The notes under the pieces were generated by a model. It was not told where the DNA came from. It searched no databases and worked only from the letters and a program-made list of their open reading frames with translations. This document shows positions 4,003 to 55,200 of a stretch of 64,000 nt of DNA, piece after piece. How positions within the stretch are numbered: the stretch's first letter is position 1; every line of letters starts with the position of its first letter. Location of the stretch: the NCBI GenBank assembly GCA_034620365.1, contig JAQGEQ010000084.1, positions 496,001 to 560,000 on the forward strand, in the 5' to 3' direction. Source of the stretch: Pegea sp. RAD2-039 (taxonomy: Eukaryota > Chordata > Thaliacea > Salpida > Salpidae). A program made the translations under genes and the position numbers.

Positions 4003-7000
4003 ATGAAAGTGATTGTGATTTTTGATCGAGTAAGAGTTGTTGTTCCCTGCAATGAATCTAAAATGAAAGTTTATCAAGTACAAGAAAAGGCTGTTACAAG
4101 ATACAAGAAAATTATGAACAAAGTTATTAAAGTTTTTCAAAATTTAATTTATTTATAAATATTTGTTGTTTATAAACTTAAAGTTTATTTTTGACTTTTT
4201 TATTCTTTAACCATTTTGATAATAAGTTATCACATGAATCATGTTTTCTTTTCTAACTAATTGTAAAAATGAAGCTATATGTGAATAATTATTTTTGGAA
4301 TATTGATTTGTTTGTTAATTAGTATTCAAAAAATGTCTTTTTTTATTAAGGGTGCTGAGCATAATATTACAATTCACAATTTGGCGTTTTTCTCTGATGG
4401 TGGAATCTTAAATTCAGATGATGATGTTATAGATGTAATTGAAGATAAAGATAAGGTTTGCTTACAGATATTTTTTATATGAAAATAAGACGAAGTTGAT
4501 TTTAGTTGGTGGCAATCTTTAGTGAAGATGGTGACCAAAATGAAAGTCTTAATAACTTCTTATCTTCTTTTGAAGGTTTTTATCTTTACTTTATATAAAT
4601 TTGTAATGAATTTATAACTTGTATTGAATTATTTTAATTATTACTTTTTTAATTTATATCAATTTTTTTTTATAATAAATTGAAATCAAATTTTCTAAAA
4701 TTTATTTTTAAGTTTTCTATAAACAGCAAATATAAACTGACAAATTTAATATCTTTGATGTCTTCTAAGCATAAAATTAGTTGGTTTTGAAATACATAGT
4801 TATGAATTATTAATCATAGATGACTACTTATATGTTTTTTATATTTTTGAAAAATAGAACAAGGAGCTCAGAATGAAAGTGTGTCTTCAAATTCATCCTC
4901 CAATAAGGCTCGTTATTCATCTTTTCTTTTATAATTTATAAAATCTAATTTATAAAAACGCAGGATGACAACAAGTCTCTATGGCAACGTGGTTCAACCT
5001 ATCAGCAATCATTTGGAAAAGGAAGACTTCAAAAAACTCCGCAGATTACTCAACGAGAAACTTTCAATCGATTAAATCCAGCAAACTTTCATGATAACCA
5101 GTTACCTTGGTTTTATCAACAATCAAGTCAAGTTTCAATCAGCATAAGTGAAGATCATCCTTTAGGGCTGAAAGTTTGTGTCTTCATCATTTGAAAACTC
5201 TTCTCTGAGACTTTTCTCATCAGGTTGAGAGCTATGAAGATCCTGAAAGCGGAAGCTTTTGTGGTTTGATCATCACTGAAGTCACTGACAAAAATCTTTC
5301 TCATATTTTACAAGCTGATGACGTCATCGTAGAGATCAATCAACGAATATTAATTAACTATTCATATGAAATGTAGGCTGGTATTTATGTAAAAATTATT
5401 AAAAATTCACAAAGATATTTAGCTCAAAAGAAAAACTCTTTGAGAGTCGAGATGAAATACACTTTCGAATTCTGTTTGCCAACCACGTGACTTCTAACCA
5501 CGTGACTTCTAACCACGTGACTTCCAACCACGTGACTTCCAACCACGTGACTTCCAACCACGTGACTTCCAACCACATGACTTTCAATCACGTGACTTCT
5601 GCTAACAGCAAGTTAGTTACATTTTTATCATCTTGTTTTTTCATCTTATCTCTATCATTTTGACAGCTCTTCCAACAATCTCTCTACTTCATCGCATGAT
5701 CATTTGTTACGTCATGCTGATGATCGCGAGAACCCGGAAACAATCAAATTGAGGAATCAACAAATAGTGGAACCCACTAAACCATTCAGCAGCATACAGC
5801 CGCTCTTTACACGCAAAATTGGAAACTGCTTCACTGTCCGCCTCCAAAAAGGTTTGTCACGCGCTGATGACGTCATAATGACGTAACTGTACTGCATGAT
5901 AGGTACAAGTGGGTTAGGATTCAGCATCACTACTCGAGATACCAACATTGGCATCGCCAATCCAATCTACGTAAAAAATATTCTCGCGTCGGGTGCAGCT
6001 GTGCGTGACGGAAGACTTCGGCCCGGGGACAGGTCAGTAGTGATGTAGTAGTGACGTAATTGGTTGAAAGTTGATGTACAGATTACTGAAAGTAAATGAG
6101 GTAGAGATGAGTGGAATCCCGCAAGAGAGTGCTGTTGAGCTACTCCGTCAGATTCCTGTCAACTCAGTTGTCGAGTTGTTAATTAGTCGACAAAAGGACT
6201 TCCTGCCGCGAGAAATGGTTTGCTGTGACGTCATTAACCCAATTTTTAACTATGTTTAATGTTTGTAGAAAATTGATGAAGAAAAGATAGTGATGGAAAA
6301 GAATTCAATAAAAACTAATTTGAAGTTTGAAATTGCTCTCAATGATACAGGTTAGTTGCTAGGTGGTTACTAAGTGGTTGGTTGCTAAGTGGTCGGTTAT
6401 TAAGTGGTTGGTACTTAGATGGTTTGTAGTTAAGTGGTTGGTTACTAGGTAGTTGGTTGCTAGGTGGTTTGTAGTTAAGTAGTTGGTTGCTAAGTGGTTT
6501 GTAGTTAAGTAGTTAGTTGCTAGGTGGTTTGTAGTTAAGTGGTTGGTTGCTAGGTGGCTTGTAGTTAAGTGGTTGGTTGCTAGGTGGTTACTAAGTGGTT
6601 GGTTGCTAGGTGGTCGGTTATTAAGTGGTTGGTACTTAGATGGTTTGTAGTTAAGTGGTTGGTTACTAGGTAGTTGGTTGCTAGGTGGTTTGTAGTTAAG
6701 TAGTTGGTTGCTAGGTGGTTTGTAGTTAAGTAGTTGGTTGCTAAGTGGTTTGTAGTTAAGTAGTTAGTTGCTAGGTGGTTTGTAGTTAAGTGGTTGGTTG
6801 CTAGGTGGCTTGTAGTTAAGTGGTTAGTTGCTAGGTGGTTACTAAGTGGTTGGTTGCTAAGTGGTCGGTTATTAAGTGGTTGGTACTTAGATGGTTTGTA
6901 GTTAAGTGGTTGGTTACTAGGTAGTTGGTTGCTAGGTGGTTTGTAGTTAAGTAGTTGGTTGCTAGGTGGTTTGTAGTTAAGTAGTTGGTTGCTAAGTGGT

Positions 7001-52200: not shown

Positions 52201-55200
52201 ATGAAGATTAGAAAGATGAAGATTAGAAAGATGAAGATTAGAAAGATGAAGATTAGAAAGATGAAGATTAGAAAGATGAAGATTAGAAAGATGAAGATTC
52301 GAAAGATGAAGATTCGAAAGATGAAGATTAGAAAGATGAAGATTAGAAAGATGAAGATTAGAAAGATGAAGATTCGAAAGATGAAGATTCGAAAGATGAA
52401 GATTAGAAAGATGAAGATTAGAAAGATTAAGATTAGAAAGATGAAGATCAGAAGATGAAGATTCGAAAGATGAAGATTACCTTTCAGTAGCTGCGATCAT
52501 TATTTTTGTGCCTTCTATATCAACTTTGATTCTCAATTTTTCCACTTTCCGATGAGTCTCCATCCTTTGCGGAGTCTCTGTCTTTTTGGGGGCTTCTACT
52601 TTTTTGGGAACTTCTACTTTTTTGGGGGCTTCTACTTTTCTGGGGGCTTCTACTTTTCTGGGGGCTTCTACTTTTCTGGGAATTTCTACTTTTCTGGGGA
52701 TTTCTACTTTTCTGGGGGCTTCTACTTTTCTGGGGGCTTCTACTTTTCTGGGGGCTTCTACCTTTCTGGGAACTTCTATTTTCCGAAAACTCTCGATGCT
52801 TTTAGAGGTTTGCATCTTCTTAGGAGCAATCATCGGTGTCTTTTTTAATCTTTTCATCTCAACTGTTTTATGTGAAGCGTTTCTGATGTTACTATTTGTC
52901 GCAATGGAAGCCATGACGTCATGTTTACGTTTGACAATCCTCTTCACCGTCTCTTGTTGCTTCCTCTTTCTACTACTGCATCCAGGATCATTTTGACTTC
53001 GCGATCTTTTCAGACTGACGTCATCAACTAACCATCCATCATTTGCGTCATAATCACCGACGTCATAGTTGTCCACCTCAGGGTTTTCATCATGCGTTTT
53101 GGACCGGACCAGACTTCTCTGAGTGGTTCCTGCCCACTGCTGCCTCTGTTGTAATTGCTCGTTCGATTTTGCTTTAATCTTGCTCAGCTCGATGACGTCA
53201 TCTTCGCTTACATCATCGACAGCGCCGCTGGCGGTGACGGTAAGATAGGAAGAAAGTTTAGAAGAGCTTCGCGAAGTTAAACGCGATTTTCGGAAATCGC
53301 ATTTCGATTTGAATTTGAGACGGATCTTGTTGTAGAGGCTGAGTTTTTTAGAATTAAATGAACCACGCCAACTCTCAAAGTATCCTTCCATCACATCTAG
53401 AGCGTTCTTCTTCTGTAAAGATCATATAAGGACTTTTTGAAGATCAATTAGAAAACTTACATCTGTGTTCTGGATAGTGGGGTCCGCTCCTGCCTCAAAG
53501 AGCATGTCCACTATGTCGAAATGACCATTTTGTGCCGCATCTGAAATCGGAGTGATGTTATCGCTTCCTCCAGGAGCGTTGATATCAGCTTCTGCGTTGA
53601 TGAGGACCCGCGTGATGTCTGTGAATCCGTGATTGGATGCTTCATGAAGAGGTGTCCAATCAAAGTTGTCCTTCGTGTTCACGTTATGTCCCTACAAATG
53701 GACCAGGTCACAAGAGGTGGTTAACAACAAGTTGGGTCATTTACAAAAGCGACCAGAGTTTCCACCTCTGCCAGGTCACCTCTAATGACAGCTTGATGAA
53801 GCGCGGTCTCGCCTTTATCATTTCGTTTTTCCTCCGTCACGATTTTTCTCTTCCGAAGACTCAAATTAGCGAATCCGATCGGCTCTGTGACGTCATAGAA
53901 TCGAGTTTTAGAATCGATTTTCAAATTTGCAGCTTTCAACAAACCCAACGAAATTTTGCCCATTTCAATCGCAAACGTTCGATCGTCGATAGTTACGTCA
54001 TCAGTGACGTCATCATCATCGTCGTCATCACTGAGTGAGGTATTGATGACGTCATTCTCTAACTCCGAAATCATCGCTCGAGTCTTTCTTGATTCTTCTT
54101 CCTGGAAACTTCTGGTCAGGTATTCGGAATAAGCGGTCAGGACCCGGATCTACTCGATCGATGGTCACGTGATGACGTAAGAAGCGCGCGCTGATGGTAC
54201 CTTGCTCCCAATGCAGTTGTGATCTTGAGCAAGACTGAGAGCTTCATCAAAGTGGGTTTTGATGACAGAGGCGGCGGTCTCGACTTTCTGGTGGCAATTT
54301 GCGATGGCCAACAAACTGTCCACAACCTGGACCAACGCGTTAAACAGAGTCTCCGCATAAATTTCCAATAAATACTCACATCTTCCCATTTGCTCCGGAG
54401 TTTGATCTCTTCTTCAAAGTTCCTGATGGCTTCGTAGAAATCGCGGAGATCGATGCAAGTTCGCGCGATTGAATAGAAGTTTGCCGCGCGCGATATTTTC
54501 GTCTCTTCATCATCATCTTCCATCATACTCAGAACCATCTGAGAAATGATTATGATGAAGTCACGACATCGCGAAACCACGTGACTACCTGTTGTCGTTC
54601 GTAATAGTAAAGAGCTTTGCGGTAAGATTCCAACTTTGTGTAGGAATCGGCAATTGATTCGTACATCTTCGACAACTCTTTATCATTCTTTCCTTTGATT
54701 TTCTCATCTTCGAGAAGATGCTTAATCCTCAGCGCTACCCGCGAAAGATCATCAGATATTTGTAAGTTGGAAACACGGATGTAGAAACCTGTTTTGATTT
54801 TGCTGATGATGTCTTCACGATCTTCAATCTGCATCAACTTGTGAGCCGCCTTCCAATACCTCAAAACTTCATTGATCATTTCTCCCGCACACAGCAACAT
54901 CTGTTAACCTCGTTGCTGTCACCTAGTGAGCATTTTTCAAACAACTTACGCTTCCGCAGAAGACAAGGCTCTCAGTGATAAAAGAGACTTCGCGCGTCTT
55001 CTTTGCAAATTCCACAGATTTCTTCGCTTGTCTAATCGACGTTTCGCAGTCATTTTGATCACATTGTAGTAACGAAAAATTGGAGTAGATCAGATACAAC
55101 TCTTCATATAAACTGTGCTCTCTGTAAATGAACGAGTTTATCGCGCGAAACAGATGACGTCATGTCGACAATTACAAAGCAATCTTGGAGGCTCTTCTGA

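Follow-up and report, generated by a model that had tools for sequence, protein, structure and literature searches.

Long tandem arrays were analyzed in the introns of a 64,000-nt stretch of the genome of the salp Pegea sp. RAD2-039 (contig JAQGEQ010000084.1, positions 496,001 to 560,000; contig C11 in this analysis, hereafter the window) and at further loci of the same genome (105.7 Mb, 387 contigs). Those arrays that could be placed were mostly located in predicted introns, starting at the donor and reaching close to the acceptor. Probably, they belong to dispersed minisatellite families that occupy whole introns and are bounded by exons and splice signals. Five long non-coding arrays were found in the window, in introns of the genes PAR-3 (two arrays), EIF2B3, DDX42, and TONSL, together with one coding array.

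Array borders at donors and acceptors

The donor residual, i.e. the distance between donor and array, was at most 9 nt in 24 of the 34 counted intronic arrays, but only in 39 of 150 mock arrays inserted at random in ordinary introns (Fisher, p = 1.8 × 10−6). The donor excess over random placement expected from the original prediction was thus confirmed for the sampled loci and predicted introns. Mock arrays were 400 nt long and were kept at least 3 nt from the donor and at least 15 nt from the acceptor; their true donor residual was at most 9 nt in 32 of 150 cases (39 as predicted), and donor and acceptor were exactly recovered in 140/150 and 149/150 cases, respectively. Since mock arrays were kept away from the acceptor, this control is uninformative on acceptor abutment, which was observed (at most 9 nt) for 10 of the 34 arrays. 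The median donor residual was 2.5 nt, and the median acceptor residual 17.5 nt. When only the window and randomly chosen pieces were considered, seven of ten non-coding arrays lay at most 9 nt from the donor (p = 0.006 versus the control). A recount in which the sites of five arrays were set by hand (PAR-3 intron 7, EIF2B3, L028, L035, and L078; L025 left out) gave donor residuals of at most 9 nt in 25/34 and at most 15 nt in 28/34 arrays, and acceptor residuals of at most 9 nt in 11/34. Array borders reached 1–4 nt into the upstream exon in 5/34 arrays; with donors set by hand, the overlap was 7 nt in one case and 12 nt in another. A higher pyrimidine content went along with a larger donor residual (rho = 0.42, p = 0.014); its correlation with the acceptor residual was negative without reaching significance (rho = −0.31, p = 0.076). 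These counts support that donor abutment is real, occurs far above random placement, and extends to other genes and unit families.

Arrays were taken from the window, from five random 10-kb pieces, from loci matching the TONSL or PAR-3 intron 11 arrays, and from 11 further TONSL-unit family loci, which were picked from the match list before any gene inspection. Array counts therefore come in part from loci selected for carrying arrays; starts of the random pieces were taken from contigs already in array match lists, which introduces a mild bias. All introns outside the window are predictions of an exon-chain gene finder trained on the window and the fetched loci. Ordinary introns had a median length of 52 nt, with 87% in the range of 40–70 nt (n = 243), in agreement with the roughly 50 nt stated earlier for sister introns. 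In total, 49 array rows were obtained. Thirty-six were in predicted introns, and 34 of these were counted after leaving out L036, which shows L030 a second time, and L019 (weak gene with a donor 800 nt off); L025, a paralogue of L022, is included. The 13 unplaced rows comprise (i) window 13743 (EIF2B3, later placed by homology) and window 52582 (coding); (ii) L072 1479 (later placed by hand), L011 3290 (at the locus edge), and four rows in L027; and (iii) L028 2474, L032, L083, and L043 plus L040 (two views of one array). For the hand placement of L072 1479, an upstream open exon (MVNVKD...SEK) was used, which is bordered by a GT located 125 nt upstream of the array.

The random pieces contained five arrays scoring at least 100, all of them in two of the five pieces. 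Four were intronic according to the gene finder and one by hand placement, with donor residuals of 0, 0, 8, 125, and 147 nt (the last two in L072). If this density (5 per 50 kb, very uncertain) holds, the genome would contain about 10,000 arrays. Within the 114 kb of window and random pieces, predicted non-array intron amounted to 13.1 kb and predicted intergenic DNA to 67.0 kb. The gene finder put eight of ten non-coding arrays in introns and left those of EIF2B3 and L072:1479-3799 outside genes; these two were placed in introns afterwards, by homology and by hand, respectively. Counting all ten as intronic, the comparison with the share of bases gives p of about 10−8, a value that is descriptive only because the window was chosen for its arrays. 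That no array is intergenic, as originally claimed, was correct for the window, but several arrays in repeat-fetched loci fit no gene: no predicted gene surrounded the arrays in L027, L032, L083, L043/L040, and contig C103. Locus L027 (contig C156, 2.8–6.3 kb) carries four different arrays in 3.5 kb near a contig end and is possibly a non-intronic array cluster.

In the window, arrays were detected by Tandem Repeats Finder (TRF) plus direct sequence reading (Table 1). The gap between donor and array was 5 nt for PAR-3 intron 7, −1 nt for PAR-3 intron 11, 12 nt for EIF2B3, 0 nt for DDX42, and 1 nt for TONSL; the statement that arrays start within 10 nt of the donor is thus right for four of the five, with EIF2B3 slightly beyond this limit. 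The donor had also been described as the first repeat unit. This is the case for PAR-3 intron 11 and DDX42, and the TONSL donor differs from the unit by the base making its GT, while the donors of PAR-3 intron 7 and EIF2B3 lie outside the unit. Gaps to the acceptor were 67, 27, 6, 79, and 16 nt in the same order, so that the claim of a remaining normal acceptor tract is only partly right, with 6 nt left in EIF2B3 and 16 nt in TONSL.

Joined exons gave an open frame over all five array introns, with exon edges in the joins partly hand-set: the first PAR-3 join had stops in all frames, and the open one was obtained after moving three exon edges by 1 base each by hand. For PAR-3 intron 7, the upstream exon (5423-5473) was chosen by hand; its donor has a poor score (−4.5), and the gene finder on its own sets the donor at 5373. 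The EIF2B3 exon upstream of intron 2 was overlooked by the gene finder. Alignments by phmmer crossed two junctions without a gap: that of PAR-3 intron 11, within PDZ3 (best E = 3 × 10−36; E = 8 × 10−34 for the named PAR-3 chain 2koh_A), and that of EIF2B3 intron 2 (6caj_J, eIF2B gamma, E = 2.3 × 10−44). Pfam domains were PDZ for PAR-3, EIF2B LbH and nucleotidyl transferase for EIF2B3, DEAD and Helicase_C for DDX42, and ankyrin repeats for TONSL; the names DDX42 and TONSL are those of the original prediction and fit these domains. The coding minisatellite of TONSL is located in the exon directly upstream of the array intron.

Table 1. Array introns and arrays in the window
Feature	Position	Strand	Description
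PAR-3 intron 7 (numbering of the original prediction)	5474..5666	+	donor GTTTGC at 5474, acceptor at 5666
PAR-3 intron 7 array	5479-5599	+	15-nt unit CCAACCACGTGACTT (TRF); frame open over junction
PAR-3 intron 11	6351..7451	+	donor GTTAGT at 6351, inside first repeat unit
PAR-3 intron 11 array	6350-7424	+	TRF period 30 = 2 × 15 nt; longer periods 221/251
EIF2B3 intron 2	13731..13970	+	donor GTAAAT at 13731; homology over junction
EIF2B3 intron 2 array	13743-13964	+	25-nt unit (TRF); acceptor 6 nt beyond
DDX42 intron 5	26177..26780	-	donor GTTTGC at 26780, within array
DDX42 intron 5 array	26256-26780	-	15-nt unit (TRF)
TONSL intron 12	50536..52480	-	donor GTAATC at 52480
TONSL intron 12 array	50552-52479	-	15-nt unit, 129 copies (TRF); acceptor 16 nt beyond
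TONSL coding minisatellite	52582-52783	-	18 nt, in frame, KVEAPR-type repeats; exon, no intron array

Unit families and splice sites inside arrays

Genome searches with seven arrays yielded relatives elsewhere for all seven, although of unequal strength. The TONSL unit was found on at least 26 other contigs at an identity of at least 82% (counted by eye). With the same identity threshold over 250 nt, a 13-nt unit of L072 was found on at least 14 others. Among the matches listed, the PAR-3 intron 7 unit reached 84–94% on several contigs, the L071 unit 83–86% on one contig and mostly lower values elsewhere, the PAR-3 intron 11 unit 80–81% at three other loci and lower values elsewhere, and the DDX42 unit 82% at one locus and 64–76% elsewhere; relatives of the EIF2B3 unit were weak (66–79%). 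One consensus unit was identical at the unlinked loci L011, L012, L016, and L021. Identical consensus units also occurred at L008/L073/L083, L074/L075/L081, L076/L077/L078, and L027/L080/L082, with one unplaced array in each of the L027/L080/L082 and L008/L073/L083 sets. Predicted introns at different loci contained 12 TONSL-unit members and 13 members of the GGTTGCTA family (L022/L025 being paralogues). All 12 placed members of the TONSL-unit family had the pyrimidine strand as the sense strand; their complementary strand would be rich in purines, with GAA/GAT sequence of the type known from exonic splicing enhancers. Nine placed members of the GGTTGCTA family were in sense and four in antisense orientation. 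The arrays do not form one satellite family, since several unit classes are present, as had been noted originally. Units were mostly 13–15 nt long, some 18–29 nt, and array periods clustered at 13–15, 18, 20, and 25–26 nt (28–29 nt in L017), e.g. in 13743-13964, L072:6462-8013, and L028; mostly, they do not exceed half of a 52-nt intron. On contig C22, the paralogues L022 and L025 lie on opposite strands at a distance of about 24 kb; they are inverted gene copies whose array introns measure 560 versus 440 nt, a pair that could serve as an internal clock for array turnover.

The vocabulary of ordinary introns alone was rejected as the source of the families, because GGTTGCTA-type words were rare in 209 ordinary short introns (GTTGCTA 2, TTGGTTG 3). 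CTTCATC was enriched there (11 versus 1.1 expected). The palindrome TGACGTCA was found in 37 of the 209 ordinary short-intron bodies versus 0.24 expected, and 36 times in the window versus 0.45 expected. Outside arrays, its density per kb was 3.9 in predicted introns, 2.0 in exons, and 0.27 in predicted intergenic DNA, and in exons it occurs in either of the two frames without a TGA stop (59 and 49 times). It thus seems that TGACGTCA acts at the DNA level in genes.

Among the 28 arrays at most 15 nt from the donor, 24 contained no internal GT scoring as high as the real donor; 18 of these had weaker GTs only, and six had no sense-strand GT past the donor. The corresponding number had a mean of 16.4/28 in length-matched intergenic-like DNA (200 draws, maximum of 21) and of 10.3/28 in concatenated intron bodies (maximum of 15). 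The donor hexamer was not present within the array in 20 of the 28. For the GGTTGCTA family with donors starting GTTRGTTGC, A was found at position +4 in three of six loci versus 10 of 203 internal copies. As far as can be judged from such sequence comparisons, the first unit seems to be tuned as a donor, unlike the later copies. In L072:6462-8013, the 13-nt unit GTCACTGTCCCAG begins with GT and ends with AG, and of 237 internal GTs, 118 equal or exceed the predicted donor in score. Relatives of this array were concentrated on certain contigs, e.g. C73, C123, and C147. A rule of G-rich sense strands (R-loop) was discarded, as some families have G/T-rich and others C/T-rich sense strands.

Proposed filling of introns and alternative accounts

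For dispersed families that fill whole introns, the following course may be envisaged. A seed of array sequence would enter an intron, and the array would grow anywhere along its length by slippage or unequal exchange. The remaining non-array intron would then be lost until only the part required for splicing is left, so that array borders would be set by the exons and splice signals. The donor border at 0–5 nt would follow because a donor needs about 6 nt, which a GT-rich unit can supply; the acceptor border would lie farther away, except for pyrimidine-rich units, because an acceptor needs a longer pyrimidine tract. In favor of this reading are the donor excess over the control, the short non-array residual, the correlation of pyrimidine content with the donor residual, the lack of polarity in unit divergence, the scarcity of strong internal GTs, and the unit families recurring at unlinked loci.

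Several observations weigh against this reading. Predicted introns outside the window are partly low-scoring (L014, L076, L077), and mock arrays placed inside exons were still called introns in 123 of 150 cases, 45 of these 123 with a donor residual of at most 9 nt. Some arrays lie deep in longer introns, i.e. those of L072 (125 and 147 nt from the donor), L074 (131 nt), and L079 (79 nt). Three extra family loci, which enter no count, comprise one with donor/acceptor residuals of 18/12 nt, one with a donor residual of 308 nt (acceptor 9 nt), and one without a gene. The small non-array residual requires an additional erosion step, which we only infer. Both controls for splice silence differ from the arrays in base composition, and an internal GT scored at least as high as the donor in four of the 28 arrays (PAR-3 intron 7, L016, L021, and L022; one GT each in L021 and L022).

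The original prediction proposed that arrays expand directionally, starting at the donor, through slippage or through duplication linked to transcription or the exon-intron junction. Donor abutment is indeed strong, and in several arrays the donor lies inside the first unit. Moreover, uniform placement in the residual was rejected with 0 nt reserved at the acceptor (Kolmogorov-Smirnov (KS) test, p = 2.5 × 10−4) and also with reserves of 10, 15, and 20 nt (p = 9 × 10−5, 0.02, and 0.01), while a departure from uniformity was undetectable with a reserve of 25 nt (KS p = 0.28, n = 11). There may thus be a donor preference over and above simple splice constraint. However, growth outward from the donor should leave units graded by age and the acceptor half intact. 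In 31 arrays, unit divergence by fifths from donor to acceptor was 0.086, 0.081, 0.072, 0.063, and 0.092, without a gradient between the first and last fifth (p = 0.61), and neighboring units near the donor were, if anything, less alike (identity of 0.797 in the first fifth versus 0.844 in the last, p = 0.07). This flat course across the fifths speaks against polar growth from the donor. In addition, ten of the 34 arrays abut the acceptor, the donor gap was smaller than the acceptor gap in only 22/34 (sign test, p = 0.12), most donor hexamers are absent from the array, and unlinked genes have unit families in common. We therefore did not retain expansion from the 5′ end, and directional expansion in general appears very unlikely. 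Independent slippage in each intron, with similar units converging on splice-compatible sequence and no dispersal, fares no better with respect to shared units. Splicing favors pyrimidine-rich sense units, low-complexity units converge more readily, and the relatives of EIF2B3 and most of those of DDX42 (below 77%) are weak among the matches listed. Random words of matching composition reach 11/13 or 13/15 matches with P of about 10−4 to 8 × 10−4 (a word-level estimate without indels), so that about 10,000 arrays would yield a few chance relatives. Chance matches are thus rare, in contrast to the many contigs sharing the TONSL unit and the L072 13-mer and to identical 14–15-nt consensus words at three to four loci each. 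Because unlinked loci have identical consensus units and all seven searched arrays have genome relatives (EIF2B3 weak ones), separate slippage each time is very unlikely. Copying of whole introns, by reverse splicing or by a rolling circle, was discarded as well, since units (11–29 nt) are shorter than introns.

Alternatively, the introns themselves could be born from arrays, by introner-like or tandem-duplication gain: an array would enter coding sequence and be spliced from the first suitable GT to an end AG, so that the intron would consist entirely of array from the outset. In line with this, most counted cases retain less non-array sequence than an ordinary intron contains (median total of 21.5 nt in the 34 arrays versus 52 nt for a whole ordinary intron; below 37 nt, the remainder after a 15-nt duplication in a 52-nt intron, in 23/34). 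Furthermore, seven of eight sense-strand GGTTGCTA loci have the same unit phase at the donor (the L028 donor being hand-set), families largely keep their orientation, and AG|GT is present in some G/T units. On the other hand, four of the 13 placed GGTTGCTA-family members are oppositely oriented, and acceptor ends are hardly more alike within than between families: over the last 16 nt of the intron, mean matches were 7.50 and 7.44 within families, 6.96 between families, and 6.68 for ordinary introns. Exon ends of 12 nt were no closer to their own array than were the exon ends of other genes (33 arrays; upstream p = 0.16, downstream p = 0.35), and one of 33 upstream exon ends matched its own array at 10/12 or better, a comparison that would miss an ancient, decayed duplication. 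An origin of the introns from arrays is therefore possible but rather improbable. A bolder version, in which the arrays are a mobile class of introns, is more doubtful: minisatellites would spread by becoming introns, spliced inside the first unit, with gain and growth as one process that affects thousands of introns. If the array density of the random pieces holds, this genome would be a natural laboratory for splicing limits on intron growth, for the dispersal of minisatellites, and for the question whether tandem repeats can create introns.

Comparison with known systems

Introner-like elements are reportedly repeat families distributed as introns in fungi, Micromonas, and Amoebophrya. Similarly, one sequence family is found here in (predicted) introns at many loci. 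In contrast to these elements, no shared acceptor end was seen in the arrays; the donor phase is common to seven of eight GGTTGCTA loci. In the Rogers model, introns are said to be gained by tandem duplication of AGGT, with the potato RNA-dependent RNA polymerase gene as a case. The arrays share with such a gain the tandem duplication with splice signals at the borders; unlike it, their units are intronic, 11–29 nt long, mostly present in many copies, and common to several genes. An intron gained by tandem duplication would be a duplicate of adjacent exon sequence, and no such resemblance to the exon ends was seen for the arrays described here.

In the open-access literature, nothing closer was found than the mirages of amphioxus, minisatellite repeats at exon-intron boundaries which, in the excerpted account, are described for Adh3 and globins (PMC3087553). 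According to the same excerpts, Adh3 mirage units measure 10–72 bp (as cited in PMC3087553), many mirage units carry AG/GT with regular splicing reported to be undisturbed, mirages were proposed as a source of intron gain, and the units of BflGb6 and BflGb9 take in exon sequence (PMC3087553). Judged against these parts of that account, two differences stand out: exon sequence is not part of the array units here (exon ends being unmatched), and the arrays are frequent, often intron-filling, and organized in dispersed families, while mirages are described gene by gene. As in mirages, the arrays touch the exon-intron boundary, at the donor (at most 9 nt) in 24 and at the acceptor in 10 of the 34. 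On the basis of sequence, the amphioxus mirage would therefore be the nearest known kind, and the arrays of Pegea may be regarded as a variant of it.

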